Positions 3,498-15,040 of a stretch of DNA of 43,745 nt are shown one piece after another (the first letter of the stretch is position 1; every line of letters begins with the position of its first letter). Source of the DNA: Aquificota bacterium (GTDB taxonomy: Bacteria; Thermosulfidibacterota; Thermosulfidibacteria; Thermosulfidibacterales; B14-G1); NCBI GenBank assembly GCA_015486015.1, contig WFSL01000022.1:1-43745 (forward strand). Direction: 5' to 3'. The translations under genes and the position numbers were made by a program. Below the pieces are notes generated by a model. The model had not been told where the DNA came from and made no database searches. It saw only the letters and a program-made list of their open reading frames with translations.

Positions 3498-4052
3498 ATG
3501 GGGCTTGTGGGGATCTTCGCTCAGGTGGGCAGGGATCTTTACCACGGCGGATTGGTTACTTCCCATGGGGGGAACCTCAGCCTCCGGAGGAAAGGCGAAA
3601 TGGTGATCACTAAGACAGGGGCCATGCTGGGGCACCTCTCAGATAACGACCTGGTAAGGGTGCCTTTGGACGGAGAGATCAGCCCTCAGGCCTCCAGAGA
3701 AGCACCACTCCATAGGGCCGTGTACCTTGCTACTAATGCCAAGGCCTTAGTCCACGCTCATCCTGCCCATGCAATAGCCCTCTCCTTCTCTCACGACACT
3801 ATAGTGCCGCGCGATGCTGAAGGTCTTTACACACTTCCAACCGTTCCTGTGGTAGAAGTGGCCCAGCCTATTGGCTCCCAGGAGCTGGCTCAGGCTGTAG
3901 CCCAAACGCTGATGGATGCCCCAGTGGTAGTAGTGAGAGGACACGGGACCTTCGCTAAGGGCGAAGATCTGTGGGATGCTTTACGCTACACATCGGTGCT
4001 CGAGACCTCCTGTGAAATCCTCTATCTATTGACCCTTAGCCAGCCCCTCTAA
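3498..4052 (+). CDS. Class II aldolase/adducin family protein (FucA/AraD-like)
   Basis: Predicted metal-dependent sugar-phosphate aldolase, epimerase or dehydratase; the exact substrate cannot be read from the sequence. The 184 residues are slightly shorter than FucA. Family marks include TSHGGNLSLR near the N-terminus, the catalytic-type glutamate in SREAPLHRAVY, the zinc ligands of HAHPAHA (two His) and a third His in VVRGHGTFAKG. The ATG at 3498 is preceded by GGAGGGGG. A longer frame opens upstream but crosses the SRP RNA and is rejected. The 3' end overlaps the convergent lptG by 17 bases. L-fuculose-phosphate aldolase, ribulose-phosphate epimerase-like or methylthioribulose-phosphate dehydratase activities are all possible. 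Confidence 0.85.
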   Translation: MGLVGIFAQVGRDLYHGGLVTSHGGNLSLRRKGEMVITKTGAMLGHLSDNDLVRVPLDGEISPQASREAPLHRAVYLATNAKALVHAHPAHAIALSFSHDTIVPRDAEGLYTLPTVPVVEVAQPIGSQELAQAVAQTLMDAPVVVVRGHGTFAKGEDLWDALRYTSVLETSCEILYLLTLSQPL

Positions 4053-5103
4053 GCAACACTCCAGCCACTATCACGGCCGCCACTGGGGGAAGGGGAGCCG
4101 CTATCATAGAAGGTAGCAAGCCCGTGCGGCCAAGAAAGGCGAGGAGGGAAGTAGCACCCCAATACAGGACAAGAACACCAGCAGTGATGGCCACCCTCTT
4201 CCATCCCCCCTCCCTGGGCGACCTTAAAGAGAGGGGGAATACCAATAACACAAGGGCAATAGGGGAGAAGGCCAAGGCAATCCTCTGATATAGTTCCATC
4301 TTGAGGTTGGGGACCTTGTAACCTTCCTCCTCCATAGCCCGAAGATAGTCCCTCAGCTCATGGTATGTCATCTCCCAGGGCTCCTTCTTCTCACTCAGGA
4401 GCCCTTGGGGAGTGATGCTCAAGGCCAGGGGCAGTGTTTTTGGCCTATCTTCCTGCACTTGGTCGTTAAGCACCTTCAGGAAGATAGGTTTCACCATCTG
4501 CCAGGTCCCTTCCCGCCAGACTACGGTATCGGCAGTGGCAAGGGCCTCTATGTGTCCATTCTCCACCCATACACACTTTGCCTTTCTAAATAGCATCCTC
4601 CTTTCGTCAAAGAAGCGGATAAAACAACTGACATTCTGTTGCTTTATCCACAGGTCGGTGTATCGGGTAAAGGCAGCCTCTTTATTCCGGTTTATCTCTA
4701 CCTTCTCGGCGAGTGCAGCCTCTGTGAGATGGAGAGGGACAACATAGAGATTCCAGGGGACAAGGGCTATACTGGCAAGCACCGCCACAATGAGGAAGGG
4801 CACAAGCACCCTCTCCGTCCTCATACCCAGCGCCCGGAGGGCAACCAGTTCGAAGTTCTTAGAGGCGATGATGAGGTATGTGAGGGTGGCGAAGAAGAAA
4901 GCCAGGGGTAAGACATCCCTGATCACCTGGGGCTGGTAGTGGATAAGATAAACGGCTACGGCCTTGAGGGGTGCCTTATTCTCCAAGACATTATCCAAGA
5001 TCTCGAAAAAGAGGATAAGGGTGTATATGGCCTCCAGCACCACCCAAACACCCAGGAGGATGGCAAGATACCCCTTGAGGATGTATCGGTCTAAAATTTT
5101 CAC
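4036..5103 (-). CDS. lptG: LPS export ABC transporter permease LptG (YjgQ/YjgP family)
   Basis: Inner-membrane half of the LptB2FG transporter that extracts LPS and feeds it to the periplasmic bridge. The 355 residues fit the family. It opens MKILDRYILKGYLAILLGVW, the usual coupling helix and first membrane segment. Two further membrane segments follow, then a periplasmic beta-jellyroll region (about 125-240), then three C-terminal membrane segments. The GTG start lies in a GTGA overlap with the stop of lptF, so the two permeases are translationally coupled. It is the last gene of the rplI-dnaB-lolA-RDD-lptF-lptG operon. Its 3' end overlaps the convergent aldolase gene. F versus G assignment rests on gene order and on the fused neighbour; both are YjgP/YjgQ paralogues. 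Confidence 0.9.
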   Translation of the reverse strand: MKILDRYILKGYLAILLGVWVVLEAIYTLILFFEILDNVLENKAPLKAVAVYLIHYQPQVIRDVLPLAFFFATLTYLIIASKNFELVALRALGMRTERVLVPFLIVAVLASIALVPWNLYVVPLHLTEAALAEKVEINRNKEAAFTRYTDLWIKQQNVSCFIRFFDERRMLFRKAKCVWVENGHIEALATADTVVWREGTWQMVKPIFLKVLNDQVQEDRPKTLPLALSITPQGLLSEKKEPWEMTYHELRDYLRAMEEEGYKVPNLKMELYQRIALAFSPIALVLLVFPLSLRSPREGGWKRVAITAGVLVLYWGATSLLAFLGRTGLLPSMIAAPLPPVAAVIVAGVLLRGAG

Positions 5104-6833
5104 AGACCCACCTTTTCAGACCTCATATAAAGGATTGCGCCTCCCCCTGCCCCCAGGATGATATCGGGGAGCCAGGCCCCAAGGAAGGATGATATCAGGC
5201 CCTTCATGGCCATATTCTGGGAGATGCTAAGGAGGACGTAGTAGAGGAGGAAGAGCCCAAAAGTAAAGAGGAGCCCTGTCCATCTCTCTGCCCTGGGGAG
5301 GAAAGGCCCCAAGGCCAGGGCCAGGAGTGCGAAGACCACCGTGGAGAAGGGCAGTGAGAAGCGCTTGTAGAGGTGGTTGAGCACATCCCAGTAGTGCTCG
5401 GGCCCTCGCTGCTTTTCCCTTTGGACCCGCCTTAGGAGCTGCGGTAGGGTGAGCTCCTTCTTGGAAAAGCCCTTAAATGAGGGCCCCAAGGCAGGGAGCA
5501 GGAACCGATACTTGTCGAAATTTAGGAGATTGTACCTCCTTCCCCCCACCGTGAGGATCTCACCATCCTTCAGAATAAGGATAAAAGAGTGGGTCTCCGG
5601 ATCCACCTTGAGCCTACCCTTCACAGCGGAAAGCACCCTGATCCCCCCATCCCCATTCTCATACAAGAGCAGGTCCCTCAAGTGCGTTTCATGGAGATGA
5701 GAGCTATAAAGCCATAAATGGCTTGAAAGCTTAATAAACCTCCCCTCCTGAAGCCCCAGCCCCTTAGAGGAATAGGCCATCCTCATTACGGAACCGTAGA
5801 ACGCTTGATTGGCCAGAGGGCCCACATATAGGGAGAAGAAAAGGGCAACCGCGGTTACCCAAAAGGCCAGGATCAGGATAGGCTGGGCTATCCTCCTGAG
5901 GCTTATGCCGAGGGCCTGTGCTGCTATGAGCTCCGCATCCGAGGAGAACCTGGAAATGGCCACCACAGAGCCAAAAAGAAAAGCGGGTGGAAGGACTAAG
6001 CTTATGGAAGCCACCGTGAGGGAAGCAACAATACTAAGCAGGAGCGTGAGAGATCCACCCCTGAGAAAGACGAGCAGATCAGTTATCCTACCTATGAAAA
6101 GGAGAAGGACAAATATACCTATACCGAGAATGAACGGCGATAAAATCTCCCGAAGCACATAACCATCTATGATCCCCCTCCAGGGCCATAGGAGAGATGC
6201 CCTTGCCCTCCTATATTCCCGCATGGGCACAGGCCTTGGCTGAGGAGGTGCCACCTCTGGCACCGGCGGTGAAGGGATCTCCTCCTGTTTAGGTGTCTCC
6301 TCTGGCATCGGCGGTGTCCTATGGAAGGCCCTTTCGATCCCCTGCAGCACCTTACGGTCAGCATGGCACACTATGCCAGGGGGCATGATCTCTGTTAAAA
6401 GGCAGGCTGCTTCAAAAGGATCCCCAATCTTGTAAGGATCATAGCCCGGGAGGAGGTAAGCCACCCGAGTTAAGTCAAGGCGCTTCAGGTCCTCCCGGAG
6501 CGCTTCTAACTCTCCTGCTATAACCTCTAATGACAAATCCTGTTCAGGTCCCAAGCCATAGAGGAGGAGCCAGGAAGACTTCCACAGGCCCAAGGTAGAG
6601 ATGAGCACCCTCTCACCCTGGGCACCAGTGATCTCCCCCTCCCTACGATCTAAGAGGAAGTTCAGGGTATGATTGATGTAGCCCAGGATACCCCTCTGAG
6701 AAAAGGGATAGGCAATGCCTATCACCACCACATCCGCCTCCACATCCTGAAGGGGAGAGTCTGTCAAGGTCCAAGTAATGGGGGTTACAGGCCGCTTTGT
6801 CCCTTTCTTCATTCTCAGGCATCCCTTTAGCAT
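5100..6833 (-). CDS. lptF: LptF permease with an N-terminal M17 aminopeptidase N-domain-like extension
   Basis: 577 residues against about 360 for ordinary LptF. Residues about 220-577 are a complete YjgP/YjgQ permease: coupling helix IIDGYVLREILSPF, three membrane segments, a periplasmic jellyroll (about 340-450) and three C-terminal membrane segments. Residues about 20-165 are extra and soluble. They carry ADVVVIGI, then GEITGAQGERVLIST, then LLLYGLGPEQ, which is the pattern of the macro-like N-terminal domain of M17 leucyl aminopeptidases. The metal-binding catalytic domain is absent. A proline-rich linker (about 172-205) joins the two. No stop or frame change separates them. The ATG at 6833 overlaps the RDD stop in ATGCTAA. 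An internal ATG at 6224 could also yield a nearly normal LptF. The permease call is firm; the N-domain assignment is by eye. Confidence 0.88.
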   Translation of the reverse strand: MLKGCLRMKKGTKRPVTPITWTLTDSPLQDVEADVVVIGIAYPFSQRGILGYINHTLNFLLDRREGEITGAQGERVLISTLGLWKSSWLLLYGLGPEQDLSLEVIAGELEALREDLKRLDLTRVAYLLPGYDPYKIGDPFEAACLLTEIMPPGIVCHADRKVLQGIERAFHRTPPMPEETPKQEEIPSPPVPEVAPPQPRPVPMREYRRARASLLWPWRGIIDGYVLREILSPFILGIGIFVLLLFIGRITDLLVFLRGGSLTLLLSIVASLTVASISLVLPPAFLFGSVVAISRFSSDAELIAAQALGISLRRIAQPILILAFWVTAVALFFSLYVGPLANQAFYGSVMRMAYSSKGLGLQEGRFIKLSSHLWLYSSHLHETHLRDLLLYENGDGGIRVLSAVKGRLKVDPETHSFILILKDGEILTVGGRRYNLLNFDKYRFLLPALGPSFKGFSKKELTLPQLLRRVQREKQRGPEHYWDVLNHLYKRFSLPFSTVVFALLALALGPFLPRAERWTGLLFTFGLFLLYYVLLSISQNMAMKGLISSFLGAWLPDIILGAGGGAILYMRSEKVGL

Positions 6834-7201
6834 TTAAGGACCCGGGTGCCCGCCAGGATGTCGTGCCATCCCCGCTTCTCCCTATCCCTCAGTATCCAGA
6901 GAATACCCAACCCCAAGGAGACAACATCCAACAGGTACCCTATGGTGCGTACAAGGGCCCTGAAATATCCCACGGTATAAAATCCCCATGGATCAGTAAC
7001 CCTGATCCCCATGGCCCACTTTCCCAAGGTTTGCCCCCTGTATCCCGTCCAGAAGGTAAAATATAGGATGGCTACCGCCAGCCAGGGATACGAAACCTCC
7101 GAAGGCCACACCAAAGATGAGCCCTCCCAGATCACCCCTAAGAGGAGGATATCAAGGATGAAGGCCAAGATCCGGATGAAAAGACCAGCCTCTCTCTTCA
7201 T
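6827..7201 (-). CDS. RDD family integral membrane protein
   Basis: Small 124-residue inner-membrane protein with about three hydrophobic segments. It has the RDD-family C-terminal signature RDREKRGWHDILAGT and the TLGKWAMGIRV motif of the central region. RDD proteins are mostly uncharacterised; some affect ion or solute transport. It lies 6 bases after lolA and overlaps the start of lptF by 7 bases, inside the envelope operon, so a role tied to the membrane is plausible but not shown. Confidence 0.85.
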   Translation of the reverse strand: MKREAGLFIRILAFILDILLLGVIWEGSSLVWPSEVSYPWLAVAILYFTFWTGYRGQTLGKWAMGIRVTDPWGFYTVGYFRALVRTIGYLLDVVSLGLGILWILRDREKRGWHDILAGTRVLKC

Positions 7202-7207
7202 GCCTAC

Positions 7208-7828
7208 CTATGGTTGGGAGATCCTCACATCCGGAGGGAGGATTATCTCGAAGGTCTTAGAGGGGATGGCAGCATTGACCTTGATATGCCGGAAGGAAAC
7301 AGCATTCAGGTTGCCTAAGGAGTCCAAGGTTTCTACCTTCTTTATAAGGAGACTCTTGGGGTCAAGGTAAACTATCACCTTTTGAATGGGGCCATGGGTA
7401 TCTACAGGGGTAAGGGTGAGAGTGGATTGCCCTTTCCCCCCCTCCTTTACGGTATAGTACCTCTTTATCTGGTCAATGAGGGAGAAAAACGGCCCCTTGG
7501 TAACAATGGCCTCCTTGTCCAATTGACCCTTAACAGCCTCCCTGTTGACGGGATCATAAAGAACAAAGAGGTCACCGTTGGTCCATACTATCTGGGGCTG
7601 GGGGGTTTTATACTCCCACATGCTCTTACCTGGCACAATGTACACCCTGCCCGTGTAGGTCATCCTCCTTCTCACCCCCACAGTGGTCTCCTGAACAAAG
7701 TCGGCCTGAATGGAGTGGATCTCGCTGTAAGAGGCCTTCAACCTCTCCATAAGGGATGTACCCCAAGCAGCCGTACCCATGAGCAGGACCAGCACCCCTA
7801 TGAAGATGCCCCTTCCAATCCTACTCAT
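7208..7828 (-). CDS. lolA: Outer-membrane lipoprotein carrier protein LolA
   Basis: Periplasmic chaperone that takes lipoproteins from the inner-membrane LolCDE complex to the outer membrane. A signal peptide is visible (MSRIGRGIFIGVLVLLMGTAAWG). The mature part begins with LMERLKASYSEIHSIQADFVQ, the usual LolA opening, and has GRVYIVPGKSMWEY and later strand motifs of the half-barrel. The reading frame opens at a TTG at 7843. The ATG at 7828 is preferred: it has GAGGAG 7 bases upstream and overlaps the dnaB stop (AATGAGTAG), giving 206 residues. Sits between dnaB and the RDD gene in one operon. Confidence 0.92.
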   Translation of the reverse strand: MSRIGRGIFIGVLVLLMGTAAWGTSLMERLKASYSEIHSIQADFVQETTVGVRRRMTYTGRVYIVPGKSMWEYKTPQPQIVWTNGDLFVLYDPVNREAVKGQLDKEAIVTKGPFFSLIDQIKRYYTVKEGGKGQSTLTLTPVDTHGPIQKVIVYLDPKSLLIKKVETLDSLGNLNAVSFRHIKVNAAIPSKTFEIILPPDVRISQP

Positions 7829-9161
7829 TAGCATACTCCTCAAAGGTGGTGTACTCCTTCAAGAAAGTGAGCTTGAAAGAGCCCGTAGGCCCGTTGCGCT
7901 GCTTGCCAACAATGATCTCGGCGATGCCCTGGTACTCCGGCTTATGCTTGTTGTAAACCTCTGGGCGATAGATGAAGACGATGAGATCGCCGTCTTGCTC
8001 AATGGCGCCTGACTCCCTCAGATCAGAAAGCTGGGGTCTTTTGTCCTGCCGGGACTCCACCGCCCTCGAGAGCTGTGAGAGGGCCACTACAGGGGTGTTA
8101 AGCTCCTTGGCTAACGCCTTGAGAGAACGCGATATCTCCGATATCTCCTGCTGACGGCTCTCTGGCCTGCCTCTCCCCTTCATGAGCTGCAGGTAGTCTA
8201 TGATCACAAGGTCCAGACCATGATCGGATTGGAGCCTCCTGGACTTTGCCCTCACCTCTAAGACAGAGGAGGCAGGGGTGTCATCCACATAAATCCTGGC
8301 CTGAGAGAGCTTGTCTGCGGCCCTGATCACCCTTTTCCAATCCTCCTTAGAAAGGATACCTGTACGGAGCTTGTGGGACGGGACCTTTGCCAGGCTGGAG
8401 AGCATCCGAAACGCCAATTGCTCTTTTGACATCTCCAAAGAGAAGAAGGCTACAGTTTTCCCCCCCTTCAGGGCAACGTTTTGGGCAATGTTGAGTGCCA
8501 GGGCTGTCTTACCCATGCTCGGTCGGGCAGCAATGATTATGAGGTCGGAGGGCTGAAGCCCCGAAGTAAGGCGGTCAAACTCACTGAACCCTGTGGCGAT
8601 GCCTGTAACAGCTTCACGCCTCTGGGAAAGCATCTCCAAGGTTTTAACGGACGCCTTTACCAGCTCCTGAGAGGTGATGAAGTCCTCCTTGATCTTCCTT
8701 TGTGAAACGGAGAATATCACCCTCTCCGCCTCGTCCAAAACCTCTTCTCCCTCCATCCTCCCATCATAGCATAAGGAGATAACATCGTTGGCCGCCGAGA
8801 TGAGCTGACGGAGCAGGGCCTTCTCTCGAACAATCCTGGCATAGTGAGGGGCATGTGCAGAGCTGGGCACGGTCTCAGTGAGCTCCATGAGGTACTCAGT
8901 GCCCCCAATGGCTTCTATCTCCTCCCTCTGGCTCAGGAGGTCACTAACAGTGATGAGATCTATAGGCTGCCCCCTCTGAAAGAGCTCCAACATGGCAGAA
9001 AAGATAATCCTATGTTCCCTCTTATAGAAATCTTCAGGCGTGACGTTCTCCAAGACCCTCAGAAGGGCATTATTATCCAAGAGGATGGACCCCAAGACAC
9101 TCTGCTCTGCCTCCACATTCTGTGGAGGGAGCCGCAGTTCCTGGGCAGTGCTACCCTTCAT
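7821..9161 (-). CDS. dnaB: Replicative DNA helicase DnaB
   Basis: Hexameric 5'-3' helicase that drives the replication fork. 446 residues, the usual length. The N-terminal collar domain starts LPPQNVEAEQSVLGSILLD. The RecA-like C-domain has Walker A in AARPSMGKTA (about 211-220), the following FFSLEMSKEQLAFRM and Walker B in LVIIDYLQLM. QLSRAVESR and LSDLRESGAIEQDGD are further helicase motifs. The N-domain is intact and no intein is present. Begins 1 base after the rplI stop, the common rplI-dnaB pairing, and ends inside the start of lolA. Confidence 0.97.
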   Translation of the reverse strand: MKGSTAQELRLPPQNVEAEQSVLGSILLDNNALLRVLENVTPEDFYKREHRIIFSAMLELFQRGQPIDLITVSDLLSQREEIEAIGGTEYLMELTETVPSSAHAPHYARIVREKALLRQLISAANDVISLCYDGRMEGEEVLDEAERVIFSVSQRKIKEDFITSQELVKASVKTLEMLSQRREAVTGIATGFSEFDRLTSGLQPSDLIIIAARPSMGKTALALNIAQNVALKGGKTVAFFSLEMSKEQLAFRMLSSLAKVPSHKLRTGILSKEDWKRVIRAADKLSQARIYVDDTPASSVLEVRAKSRRLQSDHGLDLVIIDYLQLMKGRGRPESRQQEISEISRSLKALAKELNTPVVALSQLSRAVESRQDKRPQLSDLRESGAIEQDGDLIVFIYRPEVYNKHKPEYQGIAEIIVGKQRNGPTGSFKLTFLKEYTTFEEYANE

Positions 9162-12489: not shown

Positions 12490-12920
12490 GCAGGGCCAGA
12501 CTCCTCTTTCTTACAGGTTTGGGGGCCGGCTACTTCCCGTGGGCCCCTGGGACAGCAGGATCGGTGGTAGGGGTTGTACTCTACCTCATCCTCTGGCATC
12601 ATTGTGGATGGTTCCTCTATCTCCTGCTCACATTAGCACTATTCTTCGGGGGGGTGGTAGCATCGGATACAGGCCTCCAACTGTTTGGAGAGGAGGATAG
12701 CCCCCACATAGTCATAGATGAGATAGTAGGGTACCTCATCACCATGTGGGGGATCCGCTATGGGTTTTGGCCAGTGGCGTTGGGCTTCATCCTCTTCAGG
12801 ATATGGGACATATGGAAACCCTTCTCCTGGGCAGAAAAGATTCCTGGGGGATGGGGAGTGATGGTGGATGATGCATTGGCAGGTGTGCTGGCCAATGTGA
12901 TGCTGAGGATCATATTTTGA
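12486..12920 (+). CDS. pgpA: Phosphatidylglycerophosphatase A
   Basis: Dephosphorylates phosphatidylglycerol phosphate to phosphatidylglycerol in the inner membrane. 144 residues. The motif [19 protein letters not shown] is the PgpA opening. [14 protein letters not shown] carries the catalytic acidic residues, and [14 protein letters not shown] is the conserved C-terminal acidic motif. Hydrophobic segments lie around 28-55 and 85-105. Starts in an ATGA overlap with pdxJ and ends in a TTGA overlap with lptD. Confidence 0.95.
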
Positions 12921-15040
12921 GAAAAGTGATCGTCATCCTTCTATTTGTCTTTGCCCTTGTGCCAAGGGGATGGGCCAAGGGTGGACGTATTAATATCTCT
13001 GCCAAGTCCATCAAGCGATACCCCCAGGAGCACCTGCTGGTGGCTCAGGGAGAAGTAGAGATCACCTACAAAGATGTGAAGCTTACAGCTGACAAGGTAA
13101 GCCTCTATACCACAACAAAGGACCTTATCGCAGAGGGAAACGTCACCCTATATCAGAAACAGGACTACCTCAAGTGCGACAGGCTGGAGTTTAATCTCTA
13201 TTCGAAAACGGGGGTGGCCTACAGGGCAAAGGGCTACTTCCACCCCTTCTACTATGTACAGGGGAAGAAGATAGAGAAGGTGAGCAAAAGGCGATATATA
13301 GTAGAAGAGGGGACATTCACTACCTGTGCCCCAGGGAAAGTTTGCAAGAAGGCTCCTGCGTGGTGCTTCAAGACAAAGAGGATGACGGTAGATGTAGGGG
13401 GATACGCCAGGGGGAAATCCGTCTCATTTTGGATCAAGAAGATCCCTGTACTTTATACCCCCTACATCAGGGTGCCGGTGTATCAGGAGAGGAAGACAGG
13501 TTTCCTTACGCCCCGGCCCGGCTACTCGTCTACTAAGGGCTTCTTTCTACATATCCCTTTCTTCTGGGCCATATCGGAAAGCCGAGACGCAACCATCACC
13601 GTGACCCCATATACAAAGAAGGCTATTAGGGGTACATTGGAATACAGGTACGTCATTGACAAAGAATCCAGGGGGTACTTCTTAGGAGACTACTACCGAA
13701 GAGCGCACCCCAAACGCAGGAAGTGGTCCATCTACTTCGAACATAACCAGTGGCTTAAAAACGATTGGCGCCTGCTGGCAAAGGGAGACATCAGGAGCGA
13801 TAACAGGTATGCCAGGACCTTTGGGGAGAATCTGGAGAAGAGGGTAGAACGCTACACCGACTCCTACGTGACCCTCACCAAGAACTGGCACCATACCCAC
13901 TTCTACCTTGACCTTAGAGGGAAGAAGGATCTCATAGACAAGTTCAGTGAGAGCACTTATAAGATGCCAGAGTGGAAGGTCTCTATTACACCCACCCCCT
14001 TCTTTGGCCTTCCCTTCTACCTGGAAGCGGATAACTCGCTATTGAGCTACGAAAAGAAGAGCACCTCCATGCATCTCAGCCACAAGCTTACCCGCTTGGA
14101 CCTCCACCCTGCCGCCTCTCTGCCCCTGAGGATAGCCCCATGGTTTAGCATCACCCCCAAGGTGGGATTGAGGGAAACCTGGTACAGCAAGAGCCTGAAA
14201 GAGGGGAATGAGAAACACCTAAGGCATGCCTCCCTCAGCCGCTTCCTTCCCAATATAGGGGTGGCATTGAGGGGGCCCCAGATAGAGAGGTTGTTTAAGC
14301 TGAAGGGCGAGAAAAGGATTAAGCATACAATCATACCCGAGATCCGATACACCTATATCCCACCCAAGGACCAGCATAATATTCCATACTTCGATCTGGA
14401 GGATTATGTCCCCCCCCAGGATATGTTCCTCTTTTCGCTCACTAACTGGGTCTATCTCTACACCCCAAAGGGGGGCAGGCGGTTGGCGAAGGTGAGAATA
14501 GAAGAGGGGTACAATAACCACTTTTATAGAAAAACGTGCCCTACCAAGAGACCTTTCACCGACCTACTGGTGGACGTAGACACAGACATACTGCCCACAG
14601 TAAGCCTGGATACTCAGGTGCGATACAGCGTCTATGGCAGGGGAATCACCTCCTGGGATACCCAGCTAAATCTAACCAGGGGAATATTCAGATTCAATGG
14701 GAGCTACCATTACAAAAAGAGGCCTGAGGAGCGTTTTGCGATACTGGAGCCTGGAATCACCTTAGGCCCATGGAACCTATGGGGGGCTGTGAGGTACGAT
14801 CTCAAAAAGTGCTTTACGCGAGAGAAGGAGATCAGGGCTATCTACCAGCAGGAGTGCTGGGCCGCTACGTTGGATTATATCTACATAGACAACCGTTGGA
14901 ACGACGCCCCCAACGAAAAGAGGCTCACCTTCTTTGTAACCTTGAAGGGTATAGGGAGTGTGGGAAGGAAAAAATATTCCTCTTCTCCCGAACAAAGTGG
15001 TTTTATCTTTATGCCTGCATGGGGTCCAAGCGGTTGGTGA
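12917..15040 (+). CDS. lptD: LPS-assembly protein LptD
   Basis: Outer-membrane beta-barrel that places LPS in the outer leaflet. 707 residues. The signal peptide covers about residues 1-20 (VIVILLFVFALVPRGWAK). An OstA/LptA-like beta-jellyroll follows (about 24-130; KLTADKVSLY and LIAEGNVTLYQ). Then come PVLYTPYIRVPV and TGFLTPRPGYSSTKGF, the hallmark entry to the LptD barrel, and many alternating aromatic strands to a terminal Trp. Cysteines lie in TTCAPGKVCKKAPAWC and near the C-terminus; these differ from the E. coli disulfide layout. The TTG start forms a TTGA overlap with pgpA and has GAGGA upstream. LptE was not seen. Confidence 0.93.
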   Translation: MRKVIVILLFVFALVPRGWAKGGRINISAKSIKRYPQEHLLVAQGEVEITYKDVKLTADKVSLYTTTKDLIAEGNVTLYQKQDYLKCDRLEFNLYSKTGVAYRAKGYFHPFYYVQGKKIEKVSKRRYIVEEGTFTTCAPGKVCKKAPAWCFKTKRMTVDVGGYARGKSVSFWIKKIPVLYTPYIRVPVYQERKTGFLTPRPGYSSTKGFFLHIPFFWAISESRDATITVTPYTKKAIRGTLEYRYVIDKESRGYFLGDYYRRAHPKRRKWSIYFEHNQWLKNDWRLLAKGDIRSDNRYARTFGENLEKRVERYTDSYVTLTKNWHHTHFYLDLRGKKDLIDKFSESTYKMPEWKVSITPTPFFGLPFYLEADNSLLSYEKKSTSMHLSHKLTRLDLHPAASLPLRIAPWFSITPKVGLRETWYSKSLKEGNEKHLRHASLSRFLPNIGVALRGPQIERLFKLKGEKRIKHTIIPEIRYTYIPPKDQHNIPYFDLEDYVPPQDMFLFSLTNWVYLYTPKGGRRLAKVRIEEGYNNHFYRKTCPTKRPFTDLLVDVDTDILPTVSLDTQVRYSVYGRGITSWDTQLNLTRGIFRFNGSYHYKKRPEERFAILEPGITLGPWNLWGAVRYDLKKCFTREKEIRAIYQQECWAATLDYIYIDNRWNDAPNEKRLTFFVTLKGIGSVGRKKYSSSPEQSGFIFMPAWGPSGW

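Follow-up and report, generated by a model that had tools for sequence, protein, structure and literature searches.

A small uncultured bacterial family whose LptF permease carries an M17_N-like domain

Does a subunit of the LPS transporter carry a soluble domain related to the N-terminal part of aminopeptidases, and, if so, where does this domain come from and what might it do for LPS export? The question is raised by a single gene in the window, i.e., the whole stretch of 43,745 nucleotides from an Aquificota bacterium. The first-pass annotation, made from the sequence alone, read this gene as one uninterrupted frame joining a module like the N-domain of M17 aminopeptidases, predicted to lie on the cytoplasmic side, to a full LptF, and suggested that the module might bind a ligand and gate LPS export.

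The fused gene, its operon and its relatives

The gene is a single open frame from 6833 to 5100 on the minus strand (577 aa), in which a proline-rich linker joins a Peptidase_M17_N-like domain to a complete LptF. The gene belongs to a tight operon on the same strand, in the order lolA, RDD, M17_N-LptF fusion, lptG. The features referred to below are as follows:

7208 to 7843, minus strand: lolA, outer-membrane lipoprotein carrier (PF03548, E 2e-20; TIGR00547)
6827 to 7201, minus strand: RDD-family small membrane protein (PF06271, E 4e-18), overlapping the fusion frame by 7 nt
5100 to 6833, minus strand: M17_N-LptF fusion gene, an open frame of 577 codons
6318 to 6782, minus strand: Peptidase_M17_N/macro-like domain, about residues 18-172 (Pfam, PDB profile match, AlphaFold and Foldseek)
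6186 to 6317, minus strand: proline-rich flexible linker, about residues 173-216 (alignment of the fusions; 13 Pro in residues 173-204)
6222 to 6224, minus strand: internal ATG at Met204, not conserved, from which an unfused LptF might alternatively start (start-codon and ribosome-binding-site scan)
5103 to 6185, minus strand: complete LptF permease, residues 217-577 (PF03739, E 2.4e-66; end-to-end alignment with the LptF chain 5l75_F)
4036 to 5103, minus strand: lptG (PF03739, E 5e-59; TIGR04408 scores above TIGR04407), overlapping the fusion stop by 4 nt
12917 to 15040, plus strand: lptD, LPS assembly protein (PF04453, E 8e-32)

The LptF part is complete, as first annotated. PF03739 (LptF_LptG) covers residues 225-569 with 224.6 bits against a cut-off of 27.9. 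The NCBIfam equivalog TIGR04407 (LptF) gives 194.7 bits, below its curated cut-off of 230, and the LptG model only 84.6 bits. This shortfall looks like divergence, because the adjoining LptG also misses its own NCBIfam cut-off (178 of 240). In the alignment with 5l75_F, E301 of the fusion takes the position of Glu84, which lies in the coupling helix of LptF and contacts LptB (PMC10094684). LptF occurs only once in the genome, and the remaining matches of the full protein are a stand-alone M17_N paralogue and lptG. The genome further encodes LptB (above the TIGR04406 cut-off), LpxC and LptD; LptC was found in relatives, and none was detected in this genome at E 0.1. Judged by its genes, the exporter is otherwise largely intact.

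The frame is as uninterrupted as originally described, and the location of the domain also fits that description. Residues 1-204 lack any hydrophobic stretch, no TM-like stretch occurs ahead of residue 224, and the segment preceding TM1 is net positive. Because of these features, the positive-inside rule and the known topology of LptF, the fused domain is predicted to be cytoplasmic.

Translation probably starts at Met8 (6812), giving a protein of 570 aa, because the start of the homologues aligns with this residue and AAGG precedes it; the first ATG of the frame has no ribosome-binding site in the start scan. An internal start near 6224, a caveat of the first-pass annotation, would instead yield an ordinary LptF and leave the upstream part as a separate or minor product. 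In the window, codon 204 is indeed an ATG, and AAGG lies nine bases before it; an internal ATG is also found in a related genome (G001). Nevertheless, the other two complete fusions offer no equivalent of Met204 at the LptF boundary that has a plausible ribosome-binding site; their next ATG falls inside TM1, and the linker is in frame everywhere. The internal start is thus disfavoured, and two separate products are improbable.

The in-frame fusion is present in three genomes of two genera, namely the genome of the window (G000), G002 (608 aa) and G003 (638 aa). In G001, a contig end cuts off the N-part within the proline-rich linker, and the LptF part starts at another contig end in sequence likewise rich in proline; the two halves lie on unjoined contig ends and are consistent with one fused gene. 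The linker remains in frame and free of stops across the two genera, in fusion proteins that are only about 50% identical, and the fused gene always follows lolA-RDD. In genomes of sister families (G005, G006 and G008), the order is lolA-RDD-lptF-lptG and lptF is unfused, with 361-389 codons. Since the operon order is the same there without the insert, the insertion is specific to the fusion-bearing family and can be dated to it. The fusion was not seen among about 90 genomes outside the family; wherever such genomes were searched for both domains, the M17_N and LptF matches listed never coincide, and the closest pair seen on one contig is about 37 kb apart (G036).

In public records, the relatives appear as MAGs under the labels Aquificota, Thermodesulfobacteriota or just "bacterium"; these inconsistent labels do not confirm the Desulfobacterota to which the first-pass annotation pointed. 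An assembly chimera was considered and rejected, since MAGs with separate names share the fusion. That this uncultured family is vent-dwelling is a guess based on isolate names, for example "Dive96" and "Guay".

An RDD-family or RDD-like small membrane protein is encoded between lolA and lptF throughout the order (window, 6827-7201; L043, 4564-4971; L044, 1160-1498; L045, 749-1087). This position hints at a role of the RDD protein in envelope lipid export.

Fold and origin of the N-terminal domain

Pfam places Peptidase_M17_N (PF02789) on residues 64-129 of the fusion protein. For the N-part alone, the match is slightly below the cut-off of 23.4 bits (20.9 bits, E 3.6e-4). This weak score does not appear to be due to chance, because PF02789 matches nine of nine relatives of the fused domain at E 0.1 or better (best 3.9e-8), the fused homologues of G002 and G003 pass both Pfam cut-offs (M17_N, 30.5 and 25.0 bits; LptF_LptG, 252 and 262 bits), and the window domain is recovered at E 1.7e-8 for 10,000 sequences with a profile built on stand-alone M17_N proteins of other genomes.

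Structural comparisons point in the same direction. In a phmmer search of the N-part against PDB chains, only a chance match to a designed protein was obtained; an alignment profile of the domain was needed to reach PepA (1gyt, E 5e-4). The AlphaFold model of the domain has a pLDDT of 78.9, and Foldseek ranks the PepA chain 1gyt_A first (E 3.9e-8, TMq 0.64), followed by other leucyl aminopeptidases (LAPs) and macrodomains. The domain is thus predicted to have the PepA N-domain/macro fold; no Pfam macro model was matched at E 0.1. The M17 catalytic domain (PF00883) is absent from the fusion gene, and scans of the five family genomes gave no match above its cut-off.

A stand-alone second copy of the domain is encoded elsewhere in the genome of the window (G000:C2, a frame of 194 codons; 49% identical over the matched stretch). 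Such a copy was found in four of the five family genomes (G000, G001, G002 and G004), with 45-49% identity to the domain of the window, and the sister-family genome G005 has a divergent one. In four family genomes, the stand-alone gene is oriented divergently from a gene for an HD-domain dGTPase-like protein (dgt-like; PF01966 and PF13286 where scanned). The predicted starts of the two genes are about 20-60 nt apart; the start regions are about 30 nt apart in G004 and overlap in G005. From this neighbourhood, a dNTP-related role of the stand-alone protein is worth testing. The divergent pair of stand-alone M17_N and dgt-like genes also lies downstream of an SbcD/SbcC-like pair (L034, 6501-7123; L037, 6018-6606; L038, 6027-6609; L041, 961-1527).

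In a joint tree, the fused and stand-alone copies form one clade (support 100/100) apart from the N-domains of LAPs and from other stand-alone M17_N proteins. The fused copies cluster together in a dedicated tree (90/88), a grouping that does not resolve in the larger tree. The C-terminal segment of the paralogue, HRIHYxxxGxFxYLL, is missing from the fused copies and the linker stands in its place. As for the M17 catalytic domain, it is present in G006 and G007 and was not found in G005. The fused domain is therefore best read as a duplicated stand-alone M17_N protein set before lptF, because it falls in a clade with the dgt-linked stand-alone proteins rather than with the N-domains of LAPs. 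A truncated aminopeptidase as donor was rejected on the same grounds.

These results modify the initial reading of the N-part. Its M17_N/macro-like fold, for which structure prediction had been proposed as a check, and its lack of the catalytic domain were both borne out. The limits of the domain were redrawn to about residues 18-172, with the linker at about 173-216. The M17_N identity likewise held, but the source is not an aminopeptidase minus its catalytic half; it is a stand-alone M17_N protein still encoded in the genome.

The likeness to PepA raises the question of whether the domain could be a nucleic-acid-binding or transcriptional element, as PepA is in E. coli, which would put DNA near the membrane. 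The hexamer of PepA needs the catalytic domain, which is absent here, and the fused domain is net acidic (14 K+R against 20 D+E in residues 31-172); both points speak against such a role. On the other side, the top structural and profile matches are to PepA, and the genes of the paralogue and dgt diverge, an arrangement often seen with regulators. The form of PepA that binds DNA is a hexamer, with N-terminal residues involved in the binding (PMC12826064). On balance, a nucleic-acid role is very improbable.

Constraint on the domain and its possible role

Values of pN/pS were 0.35-0.60 for the fused domain (about 170 codons), 0.24-0.46 for LptF and 0.12-0.46 for the stand-alone protein; synonymous sites are near saturation, so that only the direction of these ratios is safe. 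Between G000 and G001, dN was 0.36 for the fused domain, compared to 0.21 for the paralogue and 0.19 for LptF. The fused domain is thus under purifying selection and less constrained than LptF and the stand-alone protein. As it evolves faster than both, part of the domain may be drifting. Over four fused and four stand-alone copies, 46 columns are invariant, including G-x-L-G-Y-[LI]-N-H-T-L, G-E-R, W-K and Y-D-P, a pattern expected if a putative binding surface has been retained.

The same data bear on a simpler account, in which the insertion was an accident and the domain folds by itself, is harmless or aids the stability or translation of LptF, and has no regulatory role. The faster evolution of the fused domain, the very variable length of the linker, the loss of the paralogue's C-terminal segment and the confinement to one small family would all suit a merely tolerated fusion. 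Such an account is, however, opposed by the frame kept without a stop over two genera at this level of protein identity, by the clear purifying selection and by the family-specific invariant residues that have been kept. We consider it a real but somewhat doubtful possibility.

The reading that we favour, and to which we give an even chance, is that the fused domain is a docking or ligand-sensing appendage that brings the ligand or partner of its paralogue to LptB2FG. The sequence of events would be the following. A stand-alone M17_N gene, macro-like and catalytically empty, would have been duplicated in the ancestor of the family, and one copy would have entered the operon in frame, after the RDD gene and ahead of lptF, presumably in a single duplication-insertion event. 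In all LptF made from the fusion gene, a flexible and proline-rich tether would then hold a soluble domain in the cytoplasm next to LptB. If binding has been retained, this domain would recognise the same small molecule or protein as the stand-alone paralogue, and the binding could couple the state of the cytoplasm to LPS extraction by LptB2FG. To our knowledge, no general ligand of M17_N domains has been described.

The linker is markedly longer in the two complete homologues (G002 and G003) than in the window. Long, variable and rich in proline, such a tether suits a mobile module for docking or sensing more than a rigid gate, and it speaks against a fixed contact between domain and transporter. 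The full-length AlphaFold model (three sequences) has a pLDDT of 39 and is too poor to reveal any interface. A stronger form of the docking or sensing reading, which we regard as unlikely, is that LPS export is directly controlled by a metabolite or partner bound to the macro-like domain of LptF, with the free paralogue competing for the ligand or delivering it. If true, the LPS transporter would have a built-in cytoplasmic regulatory domain.

The fusion suggests a link between LPS export in these bacteria and a signal or partner in the cytoplasm. As an example from nature, it would point to a coupling of LPS extraction to the state of the cytoplasm at the transporter itself. It also provides a handle on the stand-alone M17_N proteins of several unrelated bacterial groups, as the fused copy probably carries to LptB2FG whatever the free copy binds.

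Comparison with known systems

The stand-alone M17_N proteins of other groups (about 160-250 aa) likewise lack a catalytic domain and are of similar length, and most have a comparable loop, G-x-x-G-x-x-[DN]-[WH]. Most of them outscore LAPs against the profile of the fusion family. They differ in that their D-W-R-L is replaced by N-H-T-L in the fusion family, and in that they are not fused to LptF and have other neighbours; no dgt or cysK homologue was found near their genes. Several unrelated genomes encode such proteins of about 175-195 aa, with D-W-x-[LI] after a glycine-containing loop (L076, 3792-4325; L077, 3890-4477; L078, 3858-4412; L079, 3977-4561; L082, 4019-4543), beside ribBA/ribH/nusB and near leuS or trkA-like genes, the neighbours being named by eye. 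No described function was found in this analysis for the stand-alone M17_N proteins of these groups, the small and conserved ribBA/ribH/nusB-linked family included. Two further stand-alone genes (L081, 3924-4415; L086, 3997-4566) adjoin CheA-type chemotaxis kinase-like genes, also named by eye.

With macrodomains such as PARP14 and E. coli YmdB, the fused domain shares the overall fold (Foldseek E about 1e-7 to 1e-6), a likeness of fold only. With PepA and the leucyl aminopeptidases it shares the fold and, at a score just below the cut-off for the window domain, a match to the Peptidase_M17_N profile (PF02789), but the fusion has no catalytic PF00883 and its domain belongs to a clade apart from their N-domains.

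The closest known counterpart of the transporter part is LptF of LptB2FGC from E. coli, Klebsiella (5l75) and P. aeruginosa (5x5y). Residues 221-559 of the fusion align with it end to end, and the coupling Glu and the adjoining lptG are shared. The solved chains, however, align from their residue 2-5 and thus have no cytoplasmic domain at this place, whereas the fusion has about 200 extra residues before TM1. We are not aware of any described LptF or LptG that has a cytoplasmic accessory domain, and none was found in the open-licence papers searched. The fusion is thus a known transporter subunit in a new domain arrangement, so far in one small family of uncultured bacteria.
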